A stretch of DNA of 64,000 nt, from contig NZ_CALPCP010000004.1 of the NCBI RefSeq assembly GCF_943192995.1, positions 124,001 to 188,000 on the forward strand, read 5' to 3'. This DNA comes from Flintibacter muris (GTDB lineage: Bacteria; Bacillota; Clostridia; Oscillospirales; Oscillospiraceae). The notes beneath the pieces were generated by a model that was not told where the DNA came from, searched no databases, and saw only the letters and a program-made list of their open reading frames with translations. Positions 349 to 45,829 of the stretch are shown here, piece by piece. Made by a program: the position numbers and the translations under genes. Every line of letters starts with the position of its first letter. Positions within the stretch are counted from its first letter, which is position 1.

Positions 349-1746
349 TTAGGTCAGTGCCCGGAACCCATGCGGGGTCAGGACGTTGAAAATCATTTTG
401 TTGGAAATGGTCTCGTGGATCTCGGAGCCGATATGTTTCCCGTTGGAGGCGTACCGTTCCTCACTCTCCATCCGGGTCACCTTGATGATCCGGCCCTTGA
501 TGATATGGGGCGTGTCGCACTGGATCAGCCCGTTTATCATCCCTGAGCCGCCGATCAGGCCGATCTGGCTGATGGACAGGGGCAAAAGCGGACGCTTCAC
601 TCCCTTGTCCAGTTCGCTGCGGGCCATAAGCTGGGCGAAGCTGTCACAATGACGCAGCTGCCGCTCCAGTTCTTTCTCGTTGAACCTCTCGCCTTTGAAG
701 GTCTTCACCCCCAGCGGATGGGCCGGGAGGGGATACTGGCCCTCTGGAAGCTCCGTCAGGCTGGGAATTTTGGCGGGGTCAACGGTGTACTTCTCCAGCC
801 ACAAGGCATTCTCCGGCACGTCCGCCCGGCGCTTGCGCAGGCCCATGACGGCGATCTGCTTGAATTTCTTAAACTCGCCGTCGGTGAACCGCCAGACGGT
901 CAGTCCCTCAAAGTTGTCCGCCAGCACCCGGCAGATGTCCGGGGTAAGCCGGTAGTAGGGAATAACATAGACCAGCAGGCCGCCGTACATCAGGTGAGGA
1001 AGGCTCTCGATCAGGAACCGCTTCTCATGCCGGGCCCGACTGCCGCTCTCATTGAGGACGGACAGATAGGGCGGGTTGAGGAACAGCAGATGGAACGCCT
1101 CCTGGCTGATCTGGCTGAAAAAGAAGCTGCCGAAGCCCACCCGATGCAGGCGGGTCTGGGCCTCCTCAGCCCGGCTCTCGTCCAGCTCTACCCCGTAGGC
1201 ATAGCAGTGATTCCCTTGAGCGAGCTGCCGCAGGGCTTTCCCGCAGCCGCAGCAGGGGTCAAACAGATTGGTGGTCACCTCCTCCGGGAACTGGATGCCC
1301 CGCAGAATGAGGGAGATGTTATCCGGGTCGGTGGGGTAGTAGCCCAGCCTGACATTGTTCATCAGCCGGCCAATTACCGCCGCGTTGGCGGTCCCATCCA
1401 CGGGGAATTTCTTGATGAAGTCCTGGATGGCATCGTAGACGGGGCGGTAGACATTGCTCATCAGGTCAAACCGAAGCAGGCCCGCCTGGAGCATAGCCGC
1501 CGTCTTGGCGTTTTGGTACTCCTCCGCCTCCATCAAAAAGAGGCGGGCCTTTCCGATGGCCTCGGCCAGCTTGCGCCGGACGGCTTGCAGCAGGGAGAAA
1601 TTGTCCCGGGCGGCGGCCAGGTCGGTGTCCTTGTACTTCTCCACCCTGGCTCGCTGGATTACCATGCTCTGCGTCAAATCAGCGATGGAGCTTTGCAGGG
1701 ATTTCAGCTCCTCCACCGCGTAGCACCGCTCAGGCTGCCCGCTCAT
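349..1746 (-). CDS. DUF6094-type SAM-dependent DNA methyltransferase
   Basis: 465 aa. The start at 1746 is preferred to an upstream ATG at 1782 because AAGGAGG lies 8 nt before it and it overlaps the previous gene by only 17 bp. The N-terminal 100 residues are helical and charged. A class I SAM fold follows: DPCCGCGK (about 163-170) is the SAM-binding motif I and NPPY (about 224-227) is the catalytic motif of N6-adenine or N4-cytosine methyltransferases. The C-terminal third has no recognisable target-recognition domain. No restriction endonuclease gene is nearby, so an orphan modification or anti-restriction role is an inference. The family name DUF6094 is from memory and should be confirmed. 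Confidence 0.82.
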   Translation of the reverse strand: MSGQPERCYAVEELKSLQSSIADLTQSMVIQRARVEKYKDTDLAAARDNFSLLQAVRRKLAEAIGKARLFLMEAEEYQNAKTAAMLQAGLLRFDLMSNVYRPVYDAIQDFIKKFPVDGTANAAVIGRLMNNVRLGYYPTDPDNISLILRGIQFPEEVTTNLFDPCCGCGKALRQLAQGNHCYAYGVELDESRAEEAQTRLHRVGFGSFFFSQISQEAFHLLFLNPPYLSVLNESGSRARHEKRFLIESLPHLMYGGLLVYVIPYYRLTPDICRVLADNFEGLTVWRFTDGEFKKFKQIAVMGLRKRRADVPENALWLEKYTVDPAKIPSLTELPEGQYPLPAHPLGVKTFKGERFNEKELERQLRHCDSFAQLMARSELDKGVKRPLLPLSISQIGLIGGSGMINGLIQCDTPHIIKGRIIKVTRMESEERYASNGKHIGSEIHETISNKMIFNVLTPHGFRALT

Positions 1747-2182
1747 AGGCGTTCCCCTCCTTCCGGAGCGTGCGGAACTCATTCAGCAGTCTGCTGTAGG
1801 ACATAGTTTTCAGCGCGTCCCGGGGCAAAAAGCGGTTGCTCCCGCCGGAGTAGTCCTTGATGTGCTTGACCTCGCGGTAAATCACCAATTCCTCAAACCC
1901 AAAGCTGGACTGACCGATCATGATGTAGATGCCGCTGTTGTTCCACATTCCGATCAGGGTCGTCTCGCCGGAGACGGCAATGCCGCCGGGATTGGCGGAA
2001 ACCTTGTACTCCCGGAGGCCCAAATTCTTGGCCAGAGCCCGCAGAAATGCCTTCCCGGTGTTCAAAAACACCTTTTTGTCCCCGTTGGGGCCGCCTTCCC
2101 GCTCGCCCCAGATGTAGCTGAGGTCGTGGCTGAGCAAATCGGCCAGCTTGCGCATATTCTTTTCCTGGGATTGTACCGACAT
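1730..2182 (-). CDS. Unknown conserved protein, 150 aa
   Basis: The start at 2182 (MSVQSQEKNMRK) has AGGAGG 8 nt upstream; the longer reading frame from 2221 lacks a site. The protein is mixed alpha/beta, with an LSYIWGEREGG segment near residue 30 and a conserved-looking GGSNRFLPRD stretch near residue 115. There is no signal peptide or membrane segment. Its stop overlaps the start of the downstream methyltransferase by 17 bp, so the two are probably translated together. I do not recognise the family. Confidence 0.7.
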   Translation of the reverse strand: MSVQSQEKNMRKLADLLSHDLSYIWGEREGGPNGDKKVFLNTGKAFLRALAKNLGLREYKVSANPGGIAVSGETTLIGMWNNSGIYIMIGQSSFGFEELVIYREVKHIKDYSGGSNRFLPRDALKTMSYSRLLNEFRTLRKEGNAYERAA

Positions 2183-3143: not shown

Positions 3144-4238
3144 TCACGCCGCCGCGGCCTGTTTCATCCGGACAGGCAGGACCATAGCGAAGTCGCTGCG
3201 GCCCTCGGCCTCCAGAATGATTGGCGCCACAGGGTTGATGACCTTCAACTTCACCTGGGGCTCCCCCCGGAACTGCCGGAGGGCGTCGATCATGTAGCGC
3301 AGTTCAAAGCCGAAGTCGATACTGCTCTCCCCGTCGATCTGAATCTGCGTGCAATAACCTCCGCTGGGCGTTAACATTGACAGCTTGCCGCCGGAAAAAC
3401 GGACGCAGGCGCTGCCTATGCTGCGGGTCAGATTTTTCAGATAGTCCAGTTCTCTCAAGAACTCTTCGGGCCAGACGCAGAACTCCTCCTTAAATTCCTT
3501 GGGAACGGCGCCGTCCACATTGAACACAAACGGTCCTCCGATCCGGGTCTGAAGCTCTGTTGTACCATCCGTTACCTGGAGATACCACTCACCCACGCTG
3601 GCAGTCACTTCCTGATTGCCGAACATTTTCAGGTATTTCAGTGCTTCAGGCAGGACCATAAATGGCTGACGGACAGCCAGACCTTCATCCACATCCCAGG
3701 CCAGCCGGTAGCCGTCCACGGCGAACACCTTGTTGCCATCGAACTGCACATGGGTGCGCTGGGCCTCCAGCTTATCATCGGGTTTTCTCAGTGCGTATTT
3801 GACATGCTCCACCCGCTCCAGCAGCCGGGCGGCGTTGACTGTGTAGGTGTGCCGCGTCTGTTCCTCCCGCATAGCGGGGTAGTCCTCGGGCAGGAAGGCG
3901 TCCATCTGCGCGGCCCGGGGGCCGCAAGACATGGTGAGCTGGATACAGCGGGTTTTATGATTGCTTTTTTCCTCCGCCTCCAAAATCAACTCACCCTCAA
4001 AGTGGCCACAGGCCCGGGCGGCGTCCTTGGGACGCTGAAACACGAAGCTCAGATCATCGCCTCGGGCGGGAATCGTCGTGGTCAGCCAGGTGGTAAAGTC
4101 GGTGGCAGTCAGGGTACAGCGGTCATTGCTGATGCTCACCAGCACGCCCTCCAATTCGGGGATGGACGCCGGCTTGATCACCTTGATTACCTTGTTCAGT
4201 GCCTGGGAAAATTCCTTCGCGTCTACGGTTGCTCTCAT
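3144..4238 (-). CDS. DnaN-like DNA polymerase sliding clamp, paralogue 1
   Basis: 364 aa. The N-terminus (MRATVDAKEFSQALNKVIKV) and the pattern of three repeated clamp domains match DnaN. Landmarks are LEGVLVSI near residue 30, FLPEDYPAM near 115, VFAVDGYRLAW near 172, and the C-terminal MVLPVR corresponding to the end of bacterial beta clamps. Length is near the usual 366-380. It is clearly divergent from a housekeeping clamp. Its ATG overlaps the ThiF stop (ATGA), so it is translationally coupled to ThiF and JAB. It probably forms a ring on DNA that recruits element-encoded replication or repair factors. A second paralogue is encoded at 13661-14803. Confidence 0.85.
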   Translation of the reverse strand: MRATVDAKEFSQALNKVIKVIKPASIPELEGVLVSISNDRCTLTATDFTTWLTTTIPARGDDLSFVFQRPKDAARACGHFEGELILEAEEKSNHKTRCIQLTMSCGPRAAQMDAFLPEDYPAMREEQTRHTYTVNAARLLERVEHVKYALRKPDDKLEAQRTHVQFDGNKVFAVDGYRLAWDVDEGLAVRQPFMVLPEALKYLKMFGNQEVTASVGEWYLQVTDGTTELQTRIGGPFVFNVDGAVPKEFKEEFCVWPEEFLRELDYLKNLTRSIGSACVRFSGGKLSMLTPSGGYCTQIQIDGESSIDFGFELRYMIDALRQFRGEPQVKLKVINPVAPIILEAEGRSDFAMVLPVRMKQAAAA

Positions 4239-5008
4239 GCGGTTTTCCTCCTTTTCGATTTTTGAATCTCCGGCCGCACATTAATGGTATTGGTGGAGAA
4301 TGTCACTTTCCGCACCGTACTCTCACCCACGGCCAGAATGTTGTAGATCATGTCCACCACAGCGGTGGCGGCGGTGATGTTGGCCGCCATACTCTGGGGA
4401 GCCGACACCGACGCCTCGGCGCAGGACAGCTCCGTGGGAAACTTATCCGTCTCTTCCAGTACGTCCGGGTAGACCACACCGATGGGCGGGTAGTAGGTTC
4501 TACCACTCCGCCGTACACCGCAGACTACCTGGCCGGTGTACTCCCCGTTGCCGCTGTCAATGTAGATCAGCTCCTTTGCCTGGGTGAACACTCTGTGGCA
4601 CAGCTGCCGGGACTTGTTGTTGTCCACAGCTCCCAGCAGGATGACCATCTCCTCCACAATTTCCTCGCGGTACGAATTGGGCCGTCTCTGCCGGAACCGC
4701 ATGGGTATCAGCAGGTCGTTCAGGCGGTCCTCATCCTCCACGAAATCGGGGACGTACTCCGTCTCCATGCCGAACACGGAGGAGTACCGCTCCGCCAGGA
4801 CCTGGGCCTTGTTCTCTCCCAGGTCGGCGGGAGTAAAGTTTTGCCGCACCAGGTTTTTCTGCTCCACCACGTCGCCGTCGCAGATGATATACCGCACCGG
4901 ACGGTCCAGCGAGTACAGCAGCCGGTACAGATGGGGCGCAATGTGGCCCCCTGTGCCGCCGGCGCCCAGCTGAACGATCTTCACAGGGCGGGTCTGGGAG
5001 AATCTCAT
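4235..5008 (-). CDS. ThiF/MoeB/E1-like adenylyltransferase (PRTRC ThiF-like)
   Basis: 257 aa. A Rossmann fold starts with GAGGTGG (residues 15-21). The ATP-binding signature of E1-like enzymes follows: D44-D46, NLVRQNF (52-58, with the arginine) and K67 in GENKA. VDNNKSR (D129) is the loop of the catalytic aspartate. C196 in ELSCAE is the candidate thioester cysteine. The CxxC zinc pairs of MoeB are absent. The sequence fits the ThiF members of PRTRC-type plasmid cassettes. It is expected to adenylate a ubiquitin-like C-terminus, but no obvious substrate protein is in the window. It overlaps JAB upstream and the clamp downstream by 4 bp each. Confidence 0.88.
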   Translation of the reverse strand: MRFSQTRPVKIVQLGAGGTGGHIAPHLYRLLYSLDRPVRYIICDGDVVEQKNLVRQNFTPADLGENKAQVLAERYSSVFGMETEYVPDFVEDEDRLNDLLIPMRFRQRRPNSYREEIVEEMVILLGAVDNNKSRQLCHRVFTQAKELIYIDSGNGEYTGQVVCGVRRSGRTYYPPIGVVYPDVLEETDKFPTELSCAEASVSAPQSMAANITAATAVVDMIYNILAVGESTVRKVTFSTNTINVRPEIQKSKRRKTA

Positions 5009-6396
5009 AACTCACCCTCCAAAAATGTCCCAGATAACAGAACTTCGCGCAGCCGAGCTTTGGCATCCTTTATGGCTCTTGTTTCCCCGGTTTTGACGTT
5101 ATCCCGCCATTCCCGGGGAAACACCTCGCCCAGACCTTCAAAAACCAGGGCGGGGTCCAACTCGCAGTAGGTGCCGCCGCAGGACATCCGCACCGTGATC
5201 TCCGGGAAAAACCGGTCCAACCGGCCCAACACGGTATACAGCCGGGTGGCCCGCTCATCCTGGTCGTCCACAGGAGAGAATTTCGCCGCCATGCTGTTGT
5301 GGCTGTGGATGTCCATGTAGTGGAGATACCGCGTTTCATCCAGACCATCCCGGCTCAGATCGGCGTTGACCCTGGCCTTGGAGACCTCCTGGGGCGGGAT
5401 GCGGACCACATACTCCTCCGACTCCTTATCCCAGAGGATGTGGGCCAGGGCCTCAAACTCCGCTGTCTCATTCATGTAGCAGCGAAAGAAGGAGATGATC
5501 TGGCTCAGCAGGGAGGCGGGAATCAGGGGGAGGGCCGGGGTGAACCCGGCCCTGATGCGTGAAAACTCCACCACATTGTCTTTGGGGGCGACGAACTCGC
5601 CCAGCTCGGTCTTGCGCAGCTCGTAGACCCTGCCGTCCCCAGAGGGAAGCAGGCAGATGGTTTTGTCCGACGCCCTGGCCTCCTCCAGAGAGGTAAACGT
5701 CCCTTTGTAGTCGGCGATGCCTTTGCTCTGGGCGGTGACTCGGGGCTTCACCAGGCAGTCCGGGCTCTTGTCCTTGGACTTTTTCAGGCCATCCAGGAAC
5801 GCCTTGGAACGCTCGATCTCCTCCTTGACGGACTGGATGGTGGCGCCCTTAGGGTCGGTGATGGCCTTGGTCACCTTGCCGTACTCCACCGACCAGGATA
5901 CTCGCTTGCCCTCGCCCAGCTCGGGAAAATCGTCCGACTTGGCGATGCGCAGCTCCTCGAAGGTCATAGCGCCATCGGTGATCTCATCCCTGGCGCTGCC
6001 GTAGGAGAAGATGGGGGCCTTCTCAAAGAGGGATTTGGCCGCTGTCTGAGCCGCCTGGGTTTCCTGCTTGTCAATGGCCGCCGCGATGGGGTTGGCCGGC
6101 TCGCTGGCAGGCGAGGGGTTCTGTGTTTTGGCCTGGGGAACAGGCTGGGGCTTGGGTGCGGGCTCCGGCTGAGGCGCGGGGGCCACGGGGGCCGCAACCG
6201 GCTCTGCCGGTGCCGCAGGAGCTTCCGGCTTGGGCTGTTCCGGGGGAGCGGCAGGGGTTTCCGTCCGCGCCGCCGGAAGGTCAAAGGGATTGACGTCATC
6301 TGTGGGAGCGCCGCCGCCAAAGATGGCGCTGACGTCCAGTTCTTCGCTGTCCTTCATGCCGGAGAACGGGAATCCGCTGTTGATAGGCTCACTCAT
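5005..6396 (-). CDS. JAMM/JAB metallo-isopeptidase domain protein
   Basis: 463 aa, ATG at 6396 with AAAGGAG upstream; the longer frame from 6447 has no site. Residues 1-130 are a Pro/Ala/Glu-rich disordered linker. Residues 130-300 form an unassigned alpha/beta region. The C-terminal domain has the exact JAMM signature HxHx7SxxD: H364, H366, S374, D377, with E313 or E315 as candidate catalytic glutamate. JAMM proteins are zinc isopeptidases that remove or mature ubiquitin-like modifiers. The 4-bp overlap with the E1-like gene supports a shared modification pathway. The N-terminal region could contain a fused substrate or adaptor; this is not shown by sequence. Confidence 0.85.
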   Translation of the reverse strand: MSEPINSGFPFSGMKDSEELDVSAIFGGGAPTDDVNPFDLPAARTETPAAPPEQPKPEAPAAPAEPVAAPVAPAPQPEPAPKPQPVPQAKTQNPSPASEPANPIAAAIDKQETQAAQTAAKSLFEKAPIFSYGSARDEITDGAMTFEELRIAKSDDFPELGEGKRVSWSVEYGKVTKAITDPKGATIQSVKEEIERSKAFLDGLKKSKDKSPDCLVKPRVTAQSKGIADYKGTFTSLEEARASDKTICLLPSGDGRVYELRKTELGEFVAPKDNVVEFSRIRAGFTPALPLIPASLLSQIISFFRCYMNETAEFEALAHILWDKESEEYVVRIPPQEVSKARVNADLSRDGLDETRYLHYMDIHSHNSMAAKFSPVDDQDERATRLYTVLGRLDRFFPEITVRMSCGGTYCELDPALVFEGLGEVFPREWRDNVKTGETRAIKDAKARLREVLLSGTFLEGEL

Positions 6397-6585
6397 AATG
6401 CTGGCTCCTTTCAATTTTTGAACAAAAAAAGACCACAACCACCCCAAAAGGCAACTGTGATCTTCTTGTTCGTCTATTTACTTCCAGGTCGATTCGGTTT
6501 GGTGCGTTAGGGCATACTACGCCCCTGGCCGCGTTCCATTCCTCCCTCACTTACTCCGCCCTAAACTTACTCCGCCCTGAAATAC
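6397..6585 (-). ncRNA. Leader RNA copy A with terminator-like attenuator
   Basis: About 190 nt of untranslated leader between the promoter and the JAB gene. In transcript order it holds two copies of AGGGCGGAGTAAG and an AGGGAGGAATGG element. Near the end is a 13-bp stem (6431-6443 with 6450-6462) followed by seven U residues (6424-6430). Outer arms GAACAA/TTGTTC (6420-6425, 6466-6471) extend the stem. This is a rho-independent terminator placed 25 nt before the JAB ribosome binding site, as in attenuation or riboswitch leaders. The same architecture recurs at 17899-18093. A 10-codon ORF (6507-6539) lies inside. Confidence 0.72.
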
Positions 6586-6677: not shown

Positions 6678-6917
6678 TTATGTTCTGTTTCTTCCACGCT
6701 CAAAACGGGCTTGCCAGGTCTTTACGGTTTGAGACTTCAAGAAATCCACCAGGCTGTCCAGCTTCTGATCGCTGTCAAACTGTTCCAGTGCGTTATAGTA
6801 CGCCCTCCGGTCCTCCGCGTGGATAATGACGGGCGGATGGTCCAGCAGAAGCAGCAGATAGTTCATCAGCAGCCGCCCGGTCCGGCCATTGCCGTCACAA
6901 CTCTGGACAAAAGTCAA
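6678..6917 (-). pseudogene. C-terminal remnant of a Fic-domain protein
   Basis: The 79 codons from 6917 down to 6678 carry the end of a Fic (AMP-transferase) core: DGNGRTGRLLMNYLLL, then an AEDRRAYYNAL helix. The first part of the motif (HPF) and the whole N-terminal domain are missing. In frame, a TAG lies two codons upstream of the TTG at 6917, where sequence of the preceding gene begins. It therefore has no valid start and is a truncated leftover joined to the tail of the DUF7695-like gene. Confidence 0.75.
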
Positions 6918-7177: not shown

Positions 7178-8758
7178 TCAAACCCGCTTTGTCACCAGTT
7201 CCCGCACAATATCATCTCCCAGCAGCTGGCTGGTGCGGTAGATGTCCTGGCAGAACGCCTTCAGGCTGAAATCCATGTTGGGTTCATCCTTGTCCAGCAA
7301 AATGCCGGTTACCTTGAAACGGTGGGCTGTCTGCTCCTGTTTCAGTTCATCCAGGCATTCCTGGGGCAGCTCGCATTCGCCGTCTGTGATAAACACAATA
7401 TCAGCGTTTTCAAAGCCTTCCTCCTTCATCAGCCGCATGGCCTCCACCATAGGTGTCTGGAAGTCGGTGCCGCCATTGAGAAAAGTCTCGGCGGCGGACA
7501 GTTTGTCCCCCATGGTGTACTCGCCCGGCCGGAACAAGTCGGTCTTGAACTCGCCGCTGCTGGCAAAATGGATCAGCGCAAAGCCGCGGCCGCTGCCGGC
7601 GGCGATCTCCAACAGGGTCAGGGCCACGGCCTTGCCCCATGCGGCGGGGTCGCCGGCGGTGGAGATAGACTCATCCAGGCAGCAGATGATGTCCCCCATG
7701 CCTTTATAAATGGGCTCCCGCCGCTGGTACTGCTTGATCTGCTTGCGCTGATACTTTTGCAGGAACAGAGGAACCGTTTTCGACGAGGCCAGCATGGCCA
7801 GCTCCGAGGTAAGGGCCCGGGAGATGTTGCAGCCCAGCTCCAGGGAATACTTTTCGCCTCGGCCATAGGCGTAGCCGTTGCGCTTGCCCTGGGCGAATAT
7901 CTCACGGAACCGGCCCAAATATTTGGAAATGTCCTTCAGTACGTCGCTTTTCCGTACCAGGTCCAGCAGACCGGTGTTGACCTTGTTCTTCTCCAGTTTG
8001 CCCGGTTCATCGCTCCAGGCCCCGATGATGTTCCGCACTTCCTCAGCCTTTTCCACCGCGGCGCTGACAGCCTGGGCAACGCTGGCGGTCAAATCGTCCT
8101 TGTTTTTAGCGGCTTTGGCGTCGATCATCTTGCCTACGGCCTCCACCTGACGTTGCTTACTGTCCGCCCGGTTGGCGGCCTCCACCACGGACTGCTCCAG
8201 CTGTGGGTCGCGCTCCTTACACCGCTGCATCCGCTCCAGCAGGCCGGCCAGGTCCCGTTGAGCCTGTTCCTCACCCTTTTCCAGCTTCTCCAGGGTGTTC
8301 AGGGCGTTATTCTCGCCGCCCAGGTCTGAAAGAAGGCCGTCCAGCTCCCCGGCAGTCCGGGCGATAAATTCCGACGCTGCCTCATAGGCGGGCAGCTCCC
8401 GGCCCTCGCAGATGGCTTTCAGCGTGGGAAAGTCCTCGCTCTGGGTGATACGCTCCAAAATGGGGGCGTTAAACTTTCGGGCCGCCACGGACAGGGTGCT
8501 TTCATCGTTGCGCCGGGGCAGCAGGGAGTAGAAGGACTGGAACACGTCCCGGGACAATGCCGGGAACGAGGCCAACTTCTCTGCGGCAGTCTGTTCAACC
8601 TGGTCCAGGCTGCCATCGTCTGCTCGCAGGTCGGTGTAAATGCTGTCCTCCAATTTTGTGGAGCGCAGCACCCGGTCGGTGGTGTTGATCTCCGATGGAG
8701 CAACAACATTCGCCAACGGAGAATTGAGGACCGCGTTGATTGTCCGAAATTTTTTCAT
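7178..8758 (-). CDS. VWA-domain protein, ViaA-like
   Basis: 526 aa, ATG at 8758 with GGGAGG upstream; the longer frame from 8863 is not supported. Residues 1-340 are mostly helical and charged. The C-terminal VWA domain has a full metal-ion site: DESIS (D362, S364, S366), the GGT threonine near 431 and ITDGE (D459). A C-terminal VWA after a helical N-terminus is the layout of ViaA, the partner of the MoxR ATPase RavA. A MoxR ATPase is encoded 2.3 kb upstream (11064-12401). A chaperone-like role on an element protein complex is inferred. Confidence 0.8.
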   Translation of the reverse strand: MKKFRTINAVLNSPLANVVAPSEINTTDRVLRSTKLEDSIYTDLRADDGSLDQVEQTAAEKLASFPALSRDVFQSFYSLLPRRNDESTLSVAARKFNAPILERITQSEDFPTLKAICEGRELPAYEAASEFIARTAGELDGLLSDLGGENNALNTLEKLEKGEEQAQRDLAGLLERMQRCKERDPQLEQSVVEAANRADSKQRQVEAVGKMIDAKAAKNKDDLTASVAQAVSAAVEKAEEVRNIIGAWSDEPGKLEKNKVNTGLLDLVRKSDVLKDISKYLGRFREIFAQGKRNGYAYGRGEKYSLELGCNISRALTSELAMLASSKTVPLFLQKYQRKQIKQYQRREPIYKGMGDIICCLDESISTAGDPAAWGKAVALTLLEIAAGSGRGFALIHFASSGEFKTDLFRPGEYTMGDKLSAAETFLNGGTDFQTPMVEAMRLMKEEGFENADIVFITDGECELPQECLDELKQEQTAHRFKVTGILLDKDEPNMDFSLKAFCQDIYRTSQLLGDDIVRELVTKRV

Positions 8759-8826
8759 ATAGTACCTCCCAAAAAACAATAGAAGCAGCACAATTCTGTA
8801 CTGCTTCGATCCGTTTTTATTCACTT

Positions 8827-9141
8827 TTACAGAAAGTCGAGGGAATCCGTATCTTGCCGGCAATCTAGGATCGCGTCGATGTAGGCCTCATTTGTTCCTA
8901 CCTCGTACAAGATCTTATACCGGCCATAAAACAGACATTTTCGATATGTTTCAGCGGGAAGCGGCGGTTCCTCCTCATAGGCCCCTGACAAAGGGAATGA
9001 GGAAATTTGCCGTTTTGCCTCTTTGAATGATGCTAAAAACCTTCTGGCCGCCGGAACACTCACATTGGAAAGAAAGCGCATATGCTCCAGCAGCATCATC
9101 TCGGCTTTCGGCGATACAACGACTTTGTATCTTTTTGGCAT
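8827..9141 (-). CDS. ParE/RelE-family toxin
   Basis: 104 aa. The pattern fits the RelE/ParE fold: VVVSPKAEMMLLEHMRF at the N-terminus, a central SFPLSG, a basic YRKCLFYGRYKILYEV strand pair, and IDAILDCRQD at the end. ParE-like members poison gyrase; RelE-like members cut ribosome-bound mRNA. The sequence alone does not separate the two. Its ATG directly follows the antitoxin stop (9142), which is standard antitoxin-first order. It probably stabilises the element. Confidence 0.85.
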   Translation of the reverse strand: MPKRYKVVVSPKAEMMLLEHMRFLSNVSVPAARRFLASFKEAKRQISSFPLSGAYEEEPPLPAETYRKCLFYGRYKILYEVGTNEAYIDAILDCRQDTDSLDFL

Positions 9142-9429
9142 TTACCCCTCTGCTCCTTCCAGGATACGTTCCATTTCCGCAATCACTTGATCGGCATCCT
9201 GTCCCACAGAACCGTTTGCCCGGGCCTGTCTGGCCTCCAGCGCATCGGCATAGGTATTTGCCGCCGGTGTCAGAGACAAAGAAAGGGGCACCCGTTTTTC
9301 TCGGGCAATCTGCTTCAGCAGCAGTCGAATCGTTGTGGCCATATTCAGCCCCAGAGCATCTAAAACCTGTTCAGCCGCTTGCTTTTCGGCGGCATCCACA
9401 CGGACATGAACGAAAGAATCACTCGCCAT
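9142..9429 (-). CDS. RelB/DinJ-family antitoxin
   Basis: 95 aa; ATG at 9429 with GAGGTG upstream is preferred over a GTG at 9438 inside that site. The N-terminal SFVHVRVDAAEKQAAEQVL then GLNMATTIRLLLKQI is the ribbon-helix-helix DNA-binding fold of RelB/DinJ. The C-terminal half is charged and would bind the toxin. It forms an operon with the toxin and very likely represses its own promoter, where an inverted repeat is visible. Confidence 0.85.
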   Translation of the reverse strand: MASDSFVHVRVDAAEKQAAEQVLDALGLNMATTIRLLLKQIAREKRVPLSLSLTPAANTYADALEARQARANGSVGQDADQVIAEMERILEGAEG

Positions 9430-9447
9430 TATGATCACCTCGACTCT

Positions 9448-10006: not shown

Positions 10007-10465
10007 TTAAAACGGCAGAGTGCCGTCATCCGCAGGCTCCCCAAAATTCGGAGCAAAGCCGCCTGGCAGACCGCCAAAGGGATCACCGCCAGCCGCCTCC
10101 ACGGGACCGCCAGTGCTGGCCGGGGGCTCCTGGCCCTCCTTGGCCTTGGAGTCGCCGAAGTAGACGCTGTCCGCGACGATCTCAGCGGAGCGGCGCTTGT
10201 TGCCCTCCTTGTCCGTCCAGTCCCGCATCTGCAAGCGGCCAGAGACCACCGCCATGCGGCCCTGAGAAAAATACTTGCTCACAAATTCCCCGGTGGTACG
10301 CCAGGCCACAATGTCGAGGAAGTCGGTGGGCCGTTCGCCGGTGGCCTTGTCCTTATAGTCCCGGTCGCAGGCAATGGAAAAGCTGGCAACCGGAGTACCG
10401 CTCTGGGTGCGGCGAAGCTCCGGGTCGCGGGTCAGGCGGCCCATAACAGTGATGTGATTCAACAT
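10007..10465 (-). CDS. ssb: Single-stranded DNA-binding protein (SSB 1)
   Basis: 152 aa. The OB fold starts MLNHITVMGRLTRDPELR, continues SFSIACDRDYK and DFLDIVAWRTTGEFVSKYF, and has GRLQMRDWTDKEGNKR near residue 80. The linker is Gly/Pro-rich and the tail DDGTLPF keeps the acidic-hydrophobic tip that recruits helicases and repair proteins. It is a full-length bacterial SSB. A shorter, tail-less SSB is encoded at 61179-61550. Confidence 0.93.
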   Translation of the reverse strand: MLNHITVMGRLTRDPELRRTQSGTPVASFSIACDRDYKDKATGERPTDFLDIVAWRTTGEFVSKYFSQGRMAVVSGRLQMRDWTDKEGNKRRSAEIVADSVYFGDSKAKEGQEPPASTGGPVEAAGGDPFGGLPGGFAPNFGEPADDGTLPF

Positions 10466-11063: not shown

Positions 11064-12401
11064 TTACTGCAAGGCGGCCAACTGATCCAGCGGCGTGTAG
11101 GTAAAGCCCACCGCCTCATGGGCCTGACGGCTGATGCTCTCCAGGTCGGTCAGAAGTCCGTCCGTCATCTGACGCTCGCTGTCGGACTGGGCTTCACCTG
11201 CCAGCTTCTGCTGGTCGCCGTACAGACGGATCAGCTCACCCCGCAGCTTGATCAGGGCCTTGCTGCCCACCTGCTCCTTGGCTGCGTCAAATTCTTCCTT
11301 GGCCTCCGCCGCCATGCCCCGGATGTTGTTCACCTTGTCCTGCATGGGGTTGATACACATACGGTTCAGCTCCGACTCCACCACGGCCCGCTCCCCCGGT
11401 TTCTGCCAGAGGTAGTTCTTCAGCGCAAGCAGATCCTGGGGCTCCACCTGAGTGTGGCCGGACAGCCACGCCCTGGCCTGGGCGATGGGGTAGTAGTTGA
11501 GGTACTTGCGGTCGGACACAGTGATCTCGTTCCTGCGCAGCTGGCACAGGATGTCGTCGGCCAGCTCGTTAATGGCCTCCGGAACCGGAAGATTTGCAGC
11601 TTCCTCCTGCATCTGCTTCAACTCATCCAGAGTGACGGAGGCAGCAATTTGTCCGGTGCGGCCAGCCTGCTTGTCCCGCAGGACGGCAAGCCGCTTGTCC
11701 CGATTCTCGATGTTCGCCGTCACCACCTTCAATTCCAGGCGGTCGTACAGAGCCTCCAGAATTTTCTCCTGGGGGTCGCTGAAATTGGGCACTTCATTTG
11801 ACGCCGCAAAGAAAGAGATGGTGGGGATGGGGTATGTACGGCCCTCATTGGTGTACTTGCGCTCATTCAGTGCAGTGAGCAGCGAATTGAGTACCCCGTC
11901 GTTGCATTTAAAAATTTCATCCAGAAAGCAGATGTCCGCCTCGGGAATTTTGCCGGCGGTATTGACCTGGGGATCGCCGCCATAGAGCTCACCTAAAGCC
12001 TTGCGCTGGCGCTCCATCTGCTCAGGCAGGTCGCCAACATCCCCGCCGCTAGTAAGACGGGCTTCCAACCGGCCATACATATCCTGGTACTGGGGGTTCT
12101 TCTCCAGCACATCCCTGGGTACGCTGCCGGGAATCAGACTGGACAGGTCAATGCGCCCAAAGAGCTGTTCCTCATCGGTCTGCTTGGACAGCAGCCGTTC
12201 AAACTGCCTCGCTCCGGTGATCCGGTTGCGGAAGGCATTGATGGCGTAGCTCTTGGCCTGGCCCGGGGCGCCCAGAATAAACAGGTTTTTCCCGGTCAGC
12301 AGGGCAATGGCGATCATTTCCACCAGCTCCTCCCGCTCGGCCACCTGGGCGTTGACATCGGCAATCACGGCCAACATCTGGTCTCTCAAATTACTCGGCA
12401 T
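11064..12401 (-). CDS. MoxR-family AAA+ ATPase, RavA-like
   Basis: 445 aa. The start at 12401 has AAGGAGG 11 nt upstream and overlaps the previous gene by 11 bp. Walker A is GAPGQAKS (44-51), Walker B is ICFLDE (D161, E162), followed by LNSLLTALNER typical of the MoxR group, then sensor 1 in FFAASNE. The C-terminal third is a helical domain rich in Glu/Lys. MoxR ATPases remodel proteins together with VWA partners, and a ViaA-like VWA protein is encoded downstream at 7178-8758. The substrate on this element is unknown. Confidence 0.85.
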   Translation of the reverse strand: MPSNLRDQMLAVIADVNAQVAEREELVEMIAIALLTGKNLFILGAPGQAKSYAINAFRNRITGARQFERLLSKQTDEEQLFGRIDLSSLIPGSVPRDVLEKNPQYQDMYGRLEARLTSGGDVGDLPEQMERQRKALGELYGGDPQVNTAGKIPEADICFLDEIFKCNDGVLNSLLTALNERKYTNEGRTYPIPTISFFAASNEVPNFSDPQEKILEALYDRLELKVVTANIENRDKRLAVLRDKQAGRTGQIAASVTLDELKQMQEEAANLPVPEAINELADDILCQLRRNEITVSDRKYLNYYPIAQARAWLSGHTQVEPQDLLALKNYLWQKPGERAVVESELNRMCINPMQDKVNNIRGMAAEAKEEFDAAKEQVGSKALIKLRGELIRLYGDQQKLAGEAQSDSERQMTDGLLTDLESISRQAHEAVGFTYTPLDQLAALQ

Positions 12402-12705
12402 AGAGATCAATTCCTCCTTCAAATTGTTCTGACATGTATTCCTTATAGCATTCAGCACAGACGATATTGTGCAGCGGCTGATAGCCCACCGCCTTCAGCA
12501 GCGCCGCGAACAGCAGCGCATCCCGTTCCGATGGAAATGGGTACACATCCATGTCACAGCCGCCCAGGCAGCAGAAGCTGGTCACAGCTTCCCAGCCAGG
12601 GACGGATTCTGACCGACGCACCGAAAGCCGGGAAGCTTTCCGGAGTTCTTCATTGGACATCTGAAGAATCCTGACTATGGCATCTCGCCGTGTTTTGCTA
12701 TCCAT
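12391..12705 (-). CDS. Unknown protein, 104 aa
   Basis: ATG at 12705, 9 bp after the previous stop, with only a weak site upstream, so it probably relies on coupling. The first 35 residues are a basic helix pair (TRRDAIVRILQMSNEELRKA). Then FCCLGGCDMDVYPFPSERDA and a later CAECYKEYM supply four or five cysteines. No family is recognised. Confidence 0.6.
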   Translation of the reverse strand: MDSKTRRDAIVRILQMSNEELRKASRLSVRRSESVPGWEAVTSFCCLGGCDMDVYPFPSERDALLFAALLKAVGYQPLHNIVCAECYKEYMSEQFEGGIDLYAE

Positions 12706-13660: not shown

Positions 13661-14803
13661 CTACGCCGCTTTCTTCCCGGCAGCCGGTTTCTTGGCCTCT
13701 TTTTGGGGAACGGACTGTGGCGCTCCAGGCCGCACACCGGCCTGCATGTAGAAGGCGTGCTCGGTATCCAGCGTCAGCATCCCGCCGGCGGCGATCCCCA
13801 AAGCAGCCGTCCCGGACAGGGACCGCAGGCAGTTGTTCAGCCGCTTGGTGAGATACCAATATTCCCCCTGGGGCATTCCGGTCAGCGGGGCCACTGTAAC
13901 AGCGTTCTGGGCACTGCCGTGAACGCCGCCGCACCGGAAGGACAGCGTCATGCCCTCAAAGGATAACTGCACCTTCCCATCAGGCTCCACACAGGACACA
14001 TTGTCCAGAGCCCTGCGCAGCTCCGCCACATCGGTGAGTACGGTAAACTGATTTTTGAGGGAACTGGTCAGAAAGTCCGTGTCAATGTACTTCTCCTGAA
14101 TCAGCCGGGCGGAGAACAGAAATCCCTCCCGGACGAAAACAATATTTTTGCCGTTAACACCCGCTCTAAATTCATCCTTATCTTCACACATCTGGGCCAG
14201 GCGGCTCAGAGAAGGTGCGGGGATCAGAACGCTGAACTCGCCGGTGCTCTTGCTGTCCCCTCTGGCTGTGACCACGCAGGTTCCGTCACTGCCGGCGGCC
14301 CGGAGGCCGTCCTGGGTGACCCGGAACTGAACGCATTTCAGCATGGGCTTCTCGTTGTTCTCGTCGGCGGCAAAAACCGTCCGCTTTGCCATGGAGGGGA
14401 TGCCGCTGATCCGGACCAGATTGGTCACAGCGGGGATTTCCACTTTGGGGTAACTGCGCCCCTCCCATACGGACACGTTGTATTTGGCGTCGCCGCTCCA
14501 AACAGCCAGCCGGCTGTCTCCGGGCATTCGCCGCAGTTCCACGGTGTCGCCGGGCAGCTTCTCCAGCATTCCGGCCAGCAGCCTGGCGTCGATGGCCAGG
14601 GCATCGTCCTCCGGGGCGGCGCAGGCCAGCTTCTGCTTCAGGGTGACCTCCAGATTTGTGGCGGTGAGAACGAGCGATTTTCTGGCAGCGCTCACCTCCA
14701 CGAGCACGCCTTTCAGCGCTTCCAGGGGCGAGTTTGCCGGGGCGACCGCCGCCGCACGCTTGACAGCGTGCAGCAGTTCGGTCCGATTCATGGTAATGTT
14801 CAA
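13661..14803 (-). CDS. DnaN-like DNA polymerase sliding clamp, paralogue 2
   Basis: 380 aa. The start is a TTG at 14803 with GGAGG 7 nt upstream. This gives MNITMNRTELLHAVKRAAAV, which aligns with clamp N-termini, whereas the next ATG is 19 nt from the site. Further landmarks are LEALKGVLVEV, LPGDTVELRR near residue 90, WEGRSYPKVEIP and LIQEKYIDTDF, spaced as in three-domain beta clamps. The last 35 residues are an extra basic tail (KKPAAGKKAA). It lies 14 bp after the SF2 helicase stop. It is strongly diverged from the other clamp (3144-4238). Confidence 0.82.
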   Translation of the reverse strand: MNITMNRTELLHAVKRAAAVAPANSPLEALKGVLVEVSAARKSLVLTATNLEVTLKQKLACAAPEDDALAIDARLLAGMLEKLPGDTVELRRMPGDSRLAVWSGDAKYNVSVWEGRSYPKVEIPAVTNLVRISGIPSMAKRTVFAADENNEKPMLKCVQFRVTQDGLRAAGSDGTCVVTARGDSKSTGEFSVLIPAPSLSRLAQMCEDKDEFRAGVNGKNIVFVREGFLFSARLIQEKYIDTDFLTSSLKNQFTVLTDVAELRRALDNVSCVEPDGKVQLSFEGMTLSFRCGGVHGSAQNAVTVAPLTGMPQGEYWYLTKRLNNCLRSLSGTAALGIAAGGMLTLDTEHAFYMQAGVRPGAPQSVPQKEAKKPAAGKKAA

Positions 14804-14817
14804 AGATATTCCTCCTT

Positions 14818-17800
14818 CTACGCAACAAAATCGAAGAAAGACAGCTGGTTTTCGTCCACCGGCTTCTTCTTCGATTTCTTTTTTCTGCGTTCTTCCAATG
14901 TCCGTTGCAGCAGCCCATCGTAGAGGGCCTGCTTGTTCTCCGTGTCGATGGTCCGCATTCGAGGCGGCTCCACCATTGCAACAGGAGCGGGGGTATCGTC
15001 CACAGCGGCCACAATGGGCACTGCTGCGGACCGGACCCGTTCACGGTGGGGGTTGATGACCGCCATTTTCTTAAAGGTGGCGGCAATGTCCTCCACATTG
15101 TCCTTGATCCCCAGGGCCAGCTCCTTCGCCATCTGAGAGGTCAGGTCCTTCACATCGCTCATAGCGGCAAGGCCCTCCTCTGAAAGATTCCCCTCGATGA
15201 TCCCGGCTACAGCCAGCTTGGAGGCCATCAGCTTCATAGCCTTGGCCTGCATGGTGTCAACGTAGTAGAGCATATAGACCTCCACCCGGGGCGCTGTCTG
15301 GTTGATCCGCCAGCTCCGGCGGGCCGCCTGGCGCAAGGTGAACAGGTTGTAGCCCATGCTGTAAAAAATCAGGGTGGTAAAGGCATTCAAATCAAGCCCT
15401 GTCTCCACACATCGGGGGTTTGTGATCAGCACCTGGCAGCCAGAGCGAACGCGCTTCTCTACCCAAGCCTCCCGTTTCTCTGGGGAGATAGCCGGAGATA
15501 GAATCTCGGTGCGGAACCCCTCCCCGGTGAGCAGCTTCACCAGTTTCTGCTGGGAATCCGTTCGGGTCCAGCTGGTGTAGATCATGACCCGCTCACCGGC
15601 GGCGATCTTCTCTCTGACAATCTCCAGCACCTTTTCTTCTTTTGGCAGGATGTCGTCAAAACCGGCCTCGTTGCTGGGGTAGGCAATAATATGGCCGTCG
15701 ATGGGGTGGACGATATCTGGCTGGTCATAGGGCTGGTCCGGGTAGACGGTGAGCAGATTCAGATAGGCGGACAGCAGCTTTTGAGCCGCTTTCCGGTCCG
15801 ACTTCAACACTGTGCGGATTTCCTGTTCCATATCCTTGTAAGCGCCATACACACTCCATGGCATATCAATGGGAATGGGAATCTCCTCATAGTCCGGGAG
15901 GTCCTTGCCCATATCGTTCAGCGAGAGAAAAGCGGTGTATTCCAGCAGGAACCGGGAAAACACCAGGGGGGACACCCCGGGGAGCTGGCGGGTCTTGGTT
16001 TTGCGCTTGCTGGCCCGGCGGTTGGCGTTGTAGGCGGCGTCGGTGGTTTCGTAGGTGTTCTCCACCACCCCGTACTCCGCGTCAAAGGTCTGGGGACTGC
16101 GGTAGCTCTTGCCGTCCTTGCGCATCAGACCGGGCACCAGCCGGTACAGCAGATGGAAAATGCCCGAGCTGTAGCCGTTGATGAGGGTGGCCGTCATGCC
16201 CACAAACCGCTTACTGACGCTGAAAATCTCCGCCATTGCGTCCCCCTGGCCGCTGTTGTTGTTGTACTCATGGAGCTCATCGGCCAGGAAAGCGTCAATT
16301 CGTCCCTTCATCTTCTTTTTGATGTAGGTGCTCAGGGGAAAACGGCGGCAGGCTCCCTTGACCGGGAAACTGCCCTGGGGATTTTCAGCAATCTCCCGCA
16401 GACGCTCCAGAATCACGTCATTTTCTGTGAGAGACTGGTAGCTGGCGGCGAAAGACTTGTAGACCCAGCCAAAATGCGATATTTTGGTCCAAAGGATATT
16501 TCTGCTTGGATTGACCGGGGCCCACAGCATAGAGCCGCACTCCCGGCAGACACGGTTTTTCTTATGTTCCCGCAGGAAAAATTGCAGGTCTGCGTTGACC
16601 AGGTAACGGGAGCCGTCGTCGCTGTACTCCATCTGAAGGGGCTTGCCGCAGTCGGGGCAGAGAAACGCCCTCTGACGTTGGTTCCAGACAACAGCGGGGT
16701 AACGCATATAGCCGTCCCGTGCCTTCTCCTTGCTGAATACCGCGTAGACGCTTTTGTCTCCGGCCTGGTACATTCCATACAGCCGCTCCAGCTCTGTGAT
16801 ACTCTTGACCACCATGGCATAGGTGTTGGGCAAGGTCTCCCCAATCTCCCGCACCCACTTCTTGGTGATATGGGAGGGGCACATGACCAGCCCAAAGGAT
16901 TTTTGGGCCCCGCCCCGGCTTTGAGCTGCCCACATACCATGCAGAGCGCCCAGGGCCGTGGAGCCGATTTTCGTCTTTCCACTTCCACATTCGGCAATGA
17001 TGAGCGCGACACCTTTCCGATCCAACTGGCGCTTGACCGCCTCGGCCACGGCCAGCTGTGCGTCGTAGAGGGAGTATCCCGCTTTCTGCTGGATGTAGTC
17101 GTTGACAGCCAGCACCTCCTCGGACAGCGGCTCGGAGGCCGGGTCGAACAGAGGTGTGAACTGGTCCCGGATGCGGTCGGCCACAGTGACGCCGAAGGTG
17201 TTGAGGTAGCCGGTGATGTTCTTCACATCTGCAAAGCCGTCCGGCTGGCCTGGGTCAGCACCGGGAATGGTAATCGCTCCGCACTCCAGGCCCCGTTCCA
17301 GAATCTCCACCACATTTTCGTCGTTGGGCCGCAGGTCCAGCACCCAGGCGTCCAGCTTCTCCTTCAGGGAGAAAACCTCCAGCGGCCGAAGTTCACCCCG
17401 GTCGATGAGGGCGTCCAGAACACAGTCCCGGAACTCTGGAATCAGGGGTGCGGCGGTCTTGCGGTCCAGCTCCTCAAAGAGTTGGTCTCTGTCCCCGGCG
17501 GGGACGAAGATGTAGCACCTTCGGGGCTGGATGGTCTGCTGCTCGCCGGCCTCCTCCGGTTCCTCCTCGCTGTCCGGCTGGTCAGCTGCCTGCGGGTCGT
17601 CGTCCACCATGAGGGTGCCCACAGCGTACAGGCCGTCGTGGGACATCTGCCGCCGGTACTGCTTGGGGACGCTCTTCAGCTGGCGGGTCTTGCCGTTGAA
17701 CGGGATTTCAATGGTGGCCCCGCCGTAGATGGCGTCCGACATGGCCTTTACCATCTCCGGGTAACCGCCGAAGCGGACGGCGCTGATCACGCTGTCCTCC

Positions 17801-17898
17801 CCGTTCCGGTCCAGGATGATGGTGTCTGCGTACACGGTCAGACGCACAGATTTGCCAGGGTCAAAATAGGTCAATGCGATCAGTCTGCTCTGTGTCAT
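14818..17898 (-). CDS. Large SF2 (SNF2-like) helicase with zinc ribbon and clamp-binding-like tail
   Basis: 1026 aa, ATG at 17898 with AAGGAG 11 nt upstream. Residues 1-280 have no recognisable domain. Then YDAQ (Q-motif-like, 278-281), Walker A GSGKT (305-309), DELH (540-543) and GMTAT (567-571). A four-cysteine ribbon (C414, C417, C451, C454) is inserted between Walker A and DELH. The second RecA domain has TNPRCVETGLDL and RQAARRSWRI, like the last SNF2 motifs. The protein ends DENQLSFFDFVA; QLSFF (1018-1022) fits the pentameric beta-clamp-binding motif. Clamp paralogue 2 is the next gene, so a helicase-clamp complex in element replication or repair is inferred. Confidence 0.85.
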   Translation of the reverse strand: MTQSRLIALTYFDPGKSVRLTVYADTIILDRNGEDSVISAVRFGGYPEMVKAMSDAIYGGATIEIPFNGKTRQLKSVPKQYRRQMSHDGLYAVGTLMVDDDPQAADQPDSEEEPEEAGEQQTIQPRRCYIFVPAGDRDQLFEELDRKTAAPLIPEFRDCVLDALIDRGELRPLEVFSLKEKLDAWVLDLRPNDENVVEILERGLECGAITIPGADPGQPDGFADVKNITGYLNTFGVTVADRIRDQFTPLFDPASEPLSEEVLAVNDYIQQKAGYSLYDAQLAVAEAVKRQLDRKGVALIIAECGSGKTKIGSTALGALHGMWAAQSRGGAQKSFGLVMCPSHITKKWVREIGETLPNTYAMVVKSITELERLYGMYQAGDKSVYAVFSKEKARDGYMRYPAVVWNQRQRAFLCPDCGKPLQMEYSDDGSRYLVNADLQFFLREHKKNRVCRECGSMLWAPVNPSRNILWTKISHFGWVYKSFAASYQSLTENDVILERLREIAENPQGSFPVKGACRRFPLSTYIKKKMKGRIDAFLADELHEYNNNSGQGDAMAEIFSVSKRFVGMTATLINGYSSGIFHLLYRLVPGLMRKDGKSYRSPQTFDAEYGVVENTYETTDAAYNANRRASKRKTKTRQLPGVSPLVFSRFLLEYTAFLSLNDMGKDLPDYEEIPIPIDMPWSVYGAYKDMEQEIRTVLKSDRKAAQKLLSAYLNLLTVYPDQPYDQPDIVHPIDGHIIAYPSNEAGFDDILPKEEKVLEIVREKIAAGERVMIYTSWTRTDSQQKLVKLLTGEGFRTEILSPAISPEKREAWVEKRVRSGCQVLITNPRCVETGLDLNAFTTLIFYSMGYNLFTLRQAARRSWRINQTAPRVEVYMLYYVDTMQAKAMKLMASKLAVAGIIEGNLSEEGLAAMSDVKDLTSQMAKELALGIKDNVEDIAATFKKMAVINPHRERVRSAAVPIVAAVDDTPAPVAMVEPPRMRTIDTENKQALYDGLLQRTLEERRKKKSKKKPVDENQLSFFDFVA

Positions 17899-26385: not shown

Positions 26386-27066
26386 TCAGAGCCCCCAACT
26401 GCCGCTATAGAAGTCAGGGACAGCGTAATCTCCGGAGCGGTAGGCAAAGAAGTCAGCCACATCCACCATGTCCAGCAGGGTGATATGGCAGACATCTAGC
26501 TCGCTCTTGGTAGACAGCAGTGCCAAGGCCAGAGTGTGCTGGTCGTCATCAGGGATCAGCCTGCCCTTGATGGCGTTGCTCACCGCCTTATAGCCCTTAT
26601 TATCTTGGTCGAAGATGTGCCGGCCCTTGACTGCGCAATGTTCGTCGATGACCAGCATGGCCTCCTTGAAAAAGGGCAGCTCGCTCCCACCGCTCTCATA
26701 TTCGTCCAGCAGGCGGCGGATGGTGTCGCTGAGCCAATCCGATGTTTGATACCGGCAGTGGGGCAGCAGGGTGTTCAGCTGAATGTGGAGCCAGCCGTAG
26801 CCAAACCGCTCCACAAATCCGGCCGTCTCCATCCGGGGCAGGACCGGCCGGTTGCCGTATCCGCCCACTCCAGGGCTGTGGCGTTCACACAGCTTTCGTA
26901 TCTCCAGAGTAGAGCGTTCAAACTGCCCGGAGGCCTGTTCCAATGTCCGCTGCAATTTCTCCGGAGCCATACCGCTGTCCGCTAGGGCCGAAAGGATACC
27001 CGCCTGCCGAGCGGCGTCCACCACCAGCTCTTGGATGCGGTTCATATCGTCTTTCATCGCGTTCAT
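26386..27066 (-). CDS. Conjugation-module protein (DUF6100-like), unknown function
   Basis: 226 aa. The ATG at 27066 overlaps the VirB4 stop as ATGA. Residues 75-226 contain WLHIQLNTLLPHCRYQTSDW, LVIDEHCAVKGRHIFDQDN, KGYKAVSNAIKGRLIPDDDQ and CHITLLDMVDVADFF. I associate this pattern with the DUF6100 family found next to VirB4 in gut Firmicutes ICEs. There is no signal peptide or membrane segment. Histidines and acidic residues in IDEHC and GRHIFDQD could form a metal site, but this is only a guess. Confidence 0.68.
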   Translation of the reverse strand: MNAMKDDMNRIQELVVDAARQAGILSALADSGMAPEKLQRTLEQASGQFERSTLEIRKLCERHSPGVGGYGNRPVLPRMETAGFVERFGYGWLHIQLNTLLPHCRYQTSDWLSDTIRRLLDEYESGGSELPFFKEAMLVIDEHCAVKGRHIFDQDNKGYKAVSNAIKGRLIPDDDQHTLALALLSTKSELDVCHITLLDMVDVADFFAYRSGDYAVPDFYSGSWGL

Positions 27067-45766: not shown

Positions 45767-45800
45767 TGAAATTTCCTCCTTGTAACGGATTTTTGGTATG

Positions 45801-45829
45801 AAAAAGGACCGCACAGAATTGTGCAGTCC
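45801..45829 (-). terminator. Rho-independent terminator
   Basis: GGACTGCACA/TGTGCGGTCC stem (45806-45829) with loop ATTC, followed on the minus strand by five U residues (45801-45805). It separates the SLH gene from the adhesin gene. No obvious promoter fits in the 35 bp left before the adhesin ribosome binding site, so the adhesin may rely on read-through. Confidence 0.85.

Follow-up and report, generated by a model that had tools for sequence, protein, structure and literature searches.

A predicted ubiquitin-like conjugation system whose JAMM enzyme carries its own modifier, in a mobile element of Flintibacter muris

A stretch of 64,000 nt from contig NZ_CALPCP010000004.1 of Flintibacter muris (hereafter the window, to which coordinates refer unless given as contig) contains three minus-strand open reading frames in the order JAB, ThiF and DnaN-like sliding clamp, sharing 4 bp at each junction (5005-5008 and 4235-4238). 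Together with an E2-like protein encoded just past the left edge of the window, JAB and ThiF are likely, judging by their sequences, to form a complete E1-E2-Ubl-JAMM set, where Ubl denotes a ubiquitin-like modifier. We consider it reasonably probable that this is a complete conjugation and deconjugation system whose JAMM enzyme carries its own modifier, with cleavage, thioester transfer, conjugation and substrates as we infer them from gene order, residue conservation, fold prediction and co-occurrence.

In the proposed mechanism, JAB would be a two-part precursor, consisting of an N-terminal ubiquitin-like modifier that ends in Lys-Gly and a JAMM isopeptidase behind it. The JAMM domain, in cis or in trans, would cut after Gly226 and free the modifier, which ThiF would adenylate and hold on C196. 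The Prok-E2_D protein would then receive the modifier and attach it to lysines on proteins of the element or the host, and the JAMM domain of JAB would take it off these targets again. Substrates in DNA replication, repair or partition are suggested by the neighbouring genes, namely the clamps, a single-stranded DNA-binding protein (SSB), a helicase and a ParB-like gene here, and Rad52, DnaN and DnaX in relatives. Such a compact and, as predicted, complete set yields one precise prediction, a single cut after Gly226 of one protein, and a testable link between bacterial ubiquitin-like tagging and the replisome of mobile elements. The features concerned are listed in Table 1.

Table 1. Features of the predicted system and its neighbours (all coordinates in the window, except where a contig is named).
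Feature	Position	Strand	Basis
Ubl-JAMM fusion protein JAB, 463 aa from ATG: disordered Pro-rich tail, predicted ubiquitin-like domain, JAB-N-like part, predicted JAMM isopeptidase	5005..6396	-	Family matches, alignments, AlphaFold2 model
Predicted ubiquitin-like (beta-grasp) domain of JAB, residues about 129-226, related to PRTRC protein C / Prok_Ub	5719..6012	-	AlphaFold2, Foldseek, hhalign, leave-family-out profile
Lys225-Gly226, where cleavage is proposed to occur and the mature modifier to end	5719..5724	-	Alignment, ends of stand-alone Ubl proteins, phage repeat junctions
JAMM domain of JAB, residues about 284-412, with E315, H364, H366, S374 and D377	5161..5547	-	Alignments, AlphaFold2, Foldseek
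E1-like ThiF protein, 257 aa, nucleotide-binding motif, candidate catalytic C196	4235..5008	-	Family matches, alignments
E2-like protein, 233 aa; 1.4 kb past left edge of window, beyond DUF6094 gene	contig C4:121932-122633 (window about -2068 to -1367)	-	Pfam Prok-E2_D
DnaN-like sliding clamp CLAMP2, 364 aa, 4-bp overlap with ThiF; optional neighbour	3144..4238	-	dnaN, PHROG and PDB matches
Second DnaN-like clamp CLAMP1, 380 aa, upstream in JAB gene string	13661..14803	-	Family match
SSB, in JAB gene string	10007..10465	-	Family match
Helicase-like protein, 1026 aa; near JAB-ThiF in distant loci too	14818..17898	-	Neighbourhood comparison
DUF6094 methyltransferase-like protein; common downstream neighbour of the system	349..1782	-	Family match and neighbourhood

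The association of JAB with ThiF recurs well beyond F. muris. A ThiF scan of genome contigs returned 50 loci, mostly from Oscillospiraceae and other Clostridia with two from Alicyclobacillus, and a JAB frame is present in 49 of them, the exception (L056) beginning inside ThiF. In two loci, L023 and L043, JAB and ThiF share a single open frame, 714 or 734 aa long. Because of this recurrence, and because every non-decayed clamp found right after ThiF starts at the identical 4-bp overlap, the arrangement is not due to chance. Within the family, this ThiF occurs in 9 of 250 genomes; a search of 398 genomes of the phylum with the ThiF alignment gave three matches at E ≤ 1e-30, the F. muris genome among them, and relatives elsewhere include five in viral contigs and nine, mostly distant, in phage records.

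Both enzymes retain the residues expected of their families. JAB could start at TTG (5005-6447) or ATG (5005-6396), and the ATG at 6396 is the better start because 41 of 42 aligned rows keep M18, as numbered from the TTG. JAB contains the motif HSHNSMAAKFSPVD (HxHx7SxxD) and keeps the full predicted JAMM active-site set, Glu plus HxH-x7-S-xx-D; in aligned relatives (TTG numbering) E332 is found in 45/46 rows, H381 and H383 in 44/44, and S391 and D394 in 44/44. JAMM proteins top the list when the whole JAB model is compared by Foldseek, and the PRTRC_A match of 47.2 bits lies below the NCBIfam (TIGR03735) cut-off of 101.8. A part of about 55 residues precedes the JAMM domain, with R261 nearly invariant in a 30-row alignment. 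ThiF carries GAGGTGG, NLVRQNF and C196, the last kept in 46 of 47 ThiF rows and in 12/12 rows of an alignment that adds Alicyclobacillus, Bacillaceae and phage, and it keeps the predicted E1 features of nucleotide-binding glycines and a catalytic Cys. It matches PF00899 at 53.3 bits and PRTRC_ThiF at 101.4 bits (under the TIGR03736 cut-off of 144.75); phmmer found no PDB relative of it at E ≤ 0.001. The gene order, the 4-bp overlaps and the motifs given in the initial annotation (HxHx7SxxD in JAB; GxGGxG, NLVRQNF and C196 in ThiF) are therefore confirmed from the frame coordinates and the sequence, and the JAMM and E1 catalytic residues, on whose conservation among homologues that annotation had made its reading depend, are kept in nearly all rows.

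The initial proposal to look for a ubiquitin-like fold in the N-terminal region of JAB was borne out, as a prediction, by AlphaFold2, Foldseek and profile comparison. The AlphaFold2 model of JAB, made with 30 chosen relatives (mean predicted local distance difference test score, pLDDT, 72.5; predicted template modelling score 0.47), runs from a disordered tail through b-b-a-b-b-(a-a)-b at residues 129-220 and a linker with K225-G226 to further strands and the JAMM domain. When the Ubl piece was modelled alone with 28 rows, the pLDDT ranged from 81.2 in the best to 58.8 in the worst of five models, and the beta-grasp order was obtained in both AlphaFold2 runs. In a Foldseek comparison of this piece with the PDB, most of the 50 matches listed are ubiquitin-like or related by title, among them the UBL domains of USP15, USP4 and TBCE, as well as elongin B, PB1, Atg8 and SUMO. 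Profile alignment by hhalign related the Clostridia Ubl rows to PRTRC C at 80.3% probability (pairwise E 1.4e-5, 35 columns; reversed control 0.2%) and to the Bacilli rows at 77.5% over 21 columns, with the Bacilli rows related to PRTRC C at 52.5%. A leave-family-out hidden Markov model (HMM), built from 20 relatives without any Oscillospiraceae-type Clostridia rows and searched against 1713 sequences, placed Clostridia JABs in the first 17 places (27/28 at E < 1, best 3.3e-5), and none of 560 shuffles fell below E 4.9. The fusion of Ubl and JAB is present in 30/30 rows chosen for alignment. Among 1125 stop-to-stop frames of at least 40 aa in the window and its flanks L064 and L065 (about 90 kb), no second Ubl was found at E < 0.01, the next match having an E of 0.017; the most likely source of the element's modifier is therefore JAB itself.

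The proposed end of the modifier is marked by K225-G226, which is present in 30/30 rows and, in a wider set, as K in 45/46 and G in 46/46. Separate Ubl proteins end at KG in Piscinibacter (TKG), Novosphingobium (TKG), Metabacillus (AKG) and Thermoanaerobacterium (KKG); the Metabacillus gene overlaps JAB by 4 bp and the Thermoanaerobacterium gene sits just ahead of ThiF. Bacillus phage KLEB27-3 (L070:733-6723) encodes a polyubiquitin-like protein of four Prok_Ub copies (93.9 bits), each ending in KG, together with E2, JAB and ThiF, while the Ubls of Cupriavidus, Azonexus, Polaromonas, Manganitrophus and Nostoc have tails past the KG. On these alignments, release of the modifier by cleavage after Gly226 is probable. 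A separate arrangement was seen in one locus (L090:7902-14253), where an HMM search finds no JAB beside the E2, the 118-aa Ubl ending in KMG and the ThiF; next come genes for a ribonucleotide reductase-like protein, DnaN and an SSB-like protein.

An E2-like protein had been seen in distant loci, which prompted a look outside the window. The F. muris protein matches Prok-E2_D at 31.4 bits (cut-off 25) and PRTRC_B at 32.1 bits (under the TIGR03737 cut-off of 131.45), and its gene lies in the same gene string and on the same strand as ThiF, at the far end rather than adjacent to ThiF-JAB. With an E2 HMM, it was found downstream of ThiF in 27 of the 33 Clostridia loci whose sequence continues for 7.4 kb or more past that gene, and by protein search in 33/37 ThiF-bearing genomes, in some of them on a contig other than that of ThiF. 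Among 250 genomes of the family, ThiF is found in nine, E2 in eight and both in seven (Fisher p 2.6e-11, or 6.2e-10 without the F. muris genome); the single genome with E2 but no ThiF has just a 48-residue fragment of it, where a contig begins. The Cys of the [ILV]C motif is kept in 7/7 aligned E2 rows.

Several observations weigh against this interpretation. For the E2, the HMM found none in the long downstream flanks of the six remaining loci (L012, L017, L035, L045, L052 and L054), the protein is missing in 4/37 ThiF-bearing genomes, and the His described downstream of the Cys for type-6d is not clearly conserved by eye in the seven aligned rows. For the Ubl fold, two of the five models of the piece alone were poor (pLDDT 62.8 and 58.8), and the Foldseek matches were weak (best E 8.3e-3, none passing E 0.001). 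The leave-family-out HMM gave E 0.058 for the JAB of the window and 6.1 for L032, with an unrelated frame at 0.019, and the profile matches, which fall inside the predicted Ubl, span only its N-terminal half (window residues about 130-162). Neither the Prok_Ub nor the PRTRC_C (TIGR03738) model found anything in the F. muris genome: TIGR03738 scored 89.4 bits on a positive control plasmid and gave nothing in F. muris at E ≤ 1, with 4/14 control genomes matching below cut-off. Across 20 genomes Prok_Ub (PF14454) had no match over its cut-off; it matched weakly the JAB N-terminus of both Alicyclobacillus genomes (E 0.388 and 0.403; 13 bits) and a site elsewhere in genome G266 (0.059), and this search alone proves nothing because 4/14 control genomes matched too. 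For the cleavage point, the KG has exceptions (Pelobacter TKA, Niallia KNG, G614 KMG), and its equation in Oscillospiraceae with the end of stand-alone Ubls is based on how the sequences align and on the invariance of the KG. In the Clostridia rows another Gly, G232 (usually within YKG), is nearly invariant as well and lies six residues after Gly226, for which reason Gly226 is only proposed as the exact end of the modifier. Finally, docking in cis might be all that the Ubl does.

This last point can be extended into an explanation in its own right, in which the Ubl is never released and stays on JAB permanently for regulation or docking, with ThiF acting in sulfur transfer or on another carrier. 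The constancy of the fusion in all 30 rows and the single JAB plus ThiF frames fit that explanation. However, the Ubl is a separate protein ending in KG in Metabacillus and Thermoanaerobacterium and stands alone in the proteobacterial records examined, no second Ubl was found in the element, and a Prok-E2 co-occurs, hence we regard a permanently attached Ubl as unlikely.

The role of the sliding clamp was considered next to that of the enzymes. From its matches, CLAMP2 is a predicted beta clamp with three DnaN domains: it matches the PHROG family 'DNA polymerase processivity factor' over residues 1-360 (E 1.3e-34) and beta clamps of the PDB (best E 1.6e-9), scores 59 bits against the full-length dnaN model of NCBIfam without reaching the cut-off of 137.65, and has two of its three Pfam DnaN domains under their cut-offs. 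Its presence was counted by hand over ThiF clusters at 97% identity (51 clusters minus two of Alicyclobacillus, leaving 49 distinct Clostridia loci, three viral loci included). A clamp directly follows ThiF in 26 of these, is lacking in 21 and is not judgeable in two (L054 and L060); the 26 comprise 22 with a whole ThiF (in L019 the contig end cuts the clamp), two with a broken ThiF (L050, L056) and two with a decayed clamp (L045, L052). On a ThiF tree of 46 rows (23 with clamp, 19 without, four outgroup; L050, L052, L054-L058 and L060 left out), the clamp was gained or lost at least five times, with well-supported branches forcing at least three; shuffling gave a mean of 15.6, and 0/500 shuffles were as low. 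Since the enzymes stayed through these gains and losses, the clamp is not a required part, and it was rejected as an obligate member. It is a frequent but dispensable neighbour. The JAB-ThiF-clamp triplet of the initial annotation thus exists without the clamp being essential to it, and the window has a second clamp (CLAMP1) upstream; as to whether such pairs would be found mostly without the clamp, the split is nearly even.

Replication genes also accompany the system elsewhere. Of 37 ThiF-bearing genomes, 13 have a CLAMP1-like match no more than 21 kb upstream of the system, with contig and strand shared; in the remainder the match sits on a different contig, on the opposite strand (G264), at a great distance (G259) or is absent (G279), and short contigs prevent a decision for many. 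Among 14 Bacillota plasmids outside Oscillospiraceae, hand-picked from 383 and 44 records, nine have a clamp near ThiF and five have none in the flank. In eight of the nine, a gene annotated as dnaN precedes E2, Ubl-JAB and ThiF, and the ninth, from Sporosarcina (L099:4943-11822), strings together Ubl-JAB, ThiF, a dnaX that ThiF overlaps, delta-prime and a divergent clamp, this clamp scoring 36 bits and, in Pfam, 22.4 bits (below the cut-off of 27). DnaN, or DnaX with delta-prime, thus recur beside the system in Bacillota plasmids, and a replisome link is plausible. No clamp was seen in the flanks of four proteobacterial or cyanobacterial loci or of an Oscillospiraceae plasmid (L101).

By analogy with eukaryotic PCNA, which ubiquitin and SUMO modify, the main substrate could be CLAMP2 or one of its binding partners. 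The identical overlap of all non-decayed clamps, the clamps of the nine Bacillota plasmids (the divergent Sporosarcina one included) and of L090/L091, and the upstream CLAMP1-like matches would all agree with this. However, almost half of the Clostridia loci have no clamp after ThiF and the tree shows its repeated gain or loss, no lysine of CLAMP2 is invariant (the best column reaches 19/23), the clamp is less similar to the copy in the window than ThiF is in 20 of 22 rows, clamps are lacking from the flanks of the distant loci and L101 named above, and the linkage may merely mark a string of replication genes. The clamp is on balance an unlikely main target. The wider proposal that Bacillota mobile elements use a self-releasing Ubl-JAMM zymogen to tag replisome proteins (sliding clamp or clamp loader), as a bacterial counterpart of PCNA ubiquitination, is speculative and also rather unlikely; if a clamp or loader were a target, ubiquitin-like tagging of sliding clamps would extend to bacteria.

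E1, E2, Ubl and JAB proteins are common to CBASS type II (Cap2/Cap3) and Bil systems, and an anti-phage defence function of that kind might be suspected here. ThiF has weak matches to E1-E2 models of PADLOC (best 28 bits) and scores 36.4 bits against the NCBIfam anti-phage cap2 model (cut-off 320). Of the four proteins scanned, JAB, E2 and the clamp have no PADLOC match at E ≤ 0.01, and the system belongs to a recurring gene string that also encodes replication and transfer functions, which makes a defence role quite improbable. That these are decaying genes without function is hardly credible: although some copies are broken (e.g. L018, L045 and L052), the active-site residues are retained in nearly all rows despite large divergence.

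The preferred reading, a conjugation system built on a releasable Ubl, places these genes in a mobile setting. The surroundings of JAB-ThiF-clamp form one minus-strand gene string, which also holds the second DnaN-like clamp, SSB, a MoxR ATPase and a VWA protein (Pfam scan), a sigma-like protein and helicase, and conjugation genes (a type IV secretion system coupling protein at 22971-25055 and a TraG P-loop protein at 27063-29009). An integrase, identified by eye, lies past the left end of the string (L064:14387-15658). From the conjugation genes and this integrase-like gene, we infer that the host DNA is an integrated conjugative-type element, with the system in its backbone. Past the integrase-like gene is a phage-like set (L064:198-14063, plus strand) that includes, by eye, DNA ligase, ThyX, FolD, dUTPase and parts of an anaerobic ribonucleotide reductase. 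Other genes of the window, all on the minus strand, include the VWA protein (7178-8863) and MoxR ATPase (11064-12458), which resemble a RavA-ViaA pair and are upstream of JAB in several relatives; an apparently truncated Fic-like frame of 79 aa (6678-6917), matched by a 250-aa Fic protein in L012 (7580-8332); a small gene pair that by eye is like RelE-RelB toxin-antitoxin (8827-9438); and SpaA-repeat surface proteins of 2893 aa (37133-45814) and 775 aa (61648-63975).

Among known systems, CBASS type II and Bil share the logic of E1, E2 and JAB; in contrast to CBASS type II, ThiF is not fused to E2 here, and no cyclase was seen among the Pfam-scanned proteins, a subset of those in the window. 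Archaeal Rpn11 and its substrate are separate proteins, unlike the single fused protein here. The respective papers describe Rpn11 as processing a ubiquitin precursor (PMC6043591) and DRJAMM as cutting MoaD-MoaE (PMC8832034), and by these accounts both resemble the present case in that a ubiquitin-like protein in extended form is the substrate of a JAMM enzyme, while in DRJAMM substrate and enzyme are two proteins rather than one.

The system looks like a variant of operon type 6d, described from sequence by Iyer, Burroughs and Aravind in 2006 (PMC1779556), which we equate with PRTRC because of the annotated gene order in L069 and L071. It shares with type 6d the adjacent E1-like and JAB genes and an E2-like protein with a conserved Cys, although the E2 is at the far end of the string here. 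In that paper's treatment of type 6d the ubiquitin-like protein is small and stands alone, with a conserved C-terminal Gly, whereas here it is a domain fused to JAB with an internal KG and no separate gene; the JAB-N of type 6d has a conserved Arg and Trp, for which the part of about 55 residues offers R261 without an equivalent Trp being seen. Bacillus cereus and B. thuringiensis are the Gram-positives given in the type 6d row, which has no Clostridia and mentions no clamp (PMC1779556). In the open-access literature searched, no dedicated experimental study of PRTRC was found; such genes are merely mentioned in passages of PMC10910872 and PMC10434189, and the matches listed held nothing further on this system. 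The initial annotation proposed a mobile-element ubiquitin-like pathway resembling PRTRC, which is supported, with JAMM and E1 residues conserved. Its statement that PRTRC B, C and E are absent was wrong for B and C, and their absence was rejected, given the Prok-E2_D protein just outside the window and the C-like Ubl fused to JAB; E was not found above cut-off in the F. muris genome. The best scores there for proteins E and F are 12.2 and 14.7 bits, on other contigs, with a control plasmid over the cut-off for both, and a PRTRC-type ParB does not exceed its cut-off of 278.6 (45.6 bits in the window at 51410-51688, 120.8 at best in the genome), 9/14 controls matching too. The likeness to the PRTRC cassette (NCBIfam TIGR03734-03742) lies in ThiF, A (JAB) and B (E2) by sequence, and in C by a partial-domain profile and the KG end; the difference is that ThiF, A and B are below their NCBIfam cut-offs and C is fused to JAB. 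By these cut-offs it is not a PRTRC cassette, yet it is predicted to work like one. What distinguishes it from PRTRC and type 6d is the Ubl-JAMM fusion together with its replisome neighbours.

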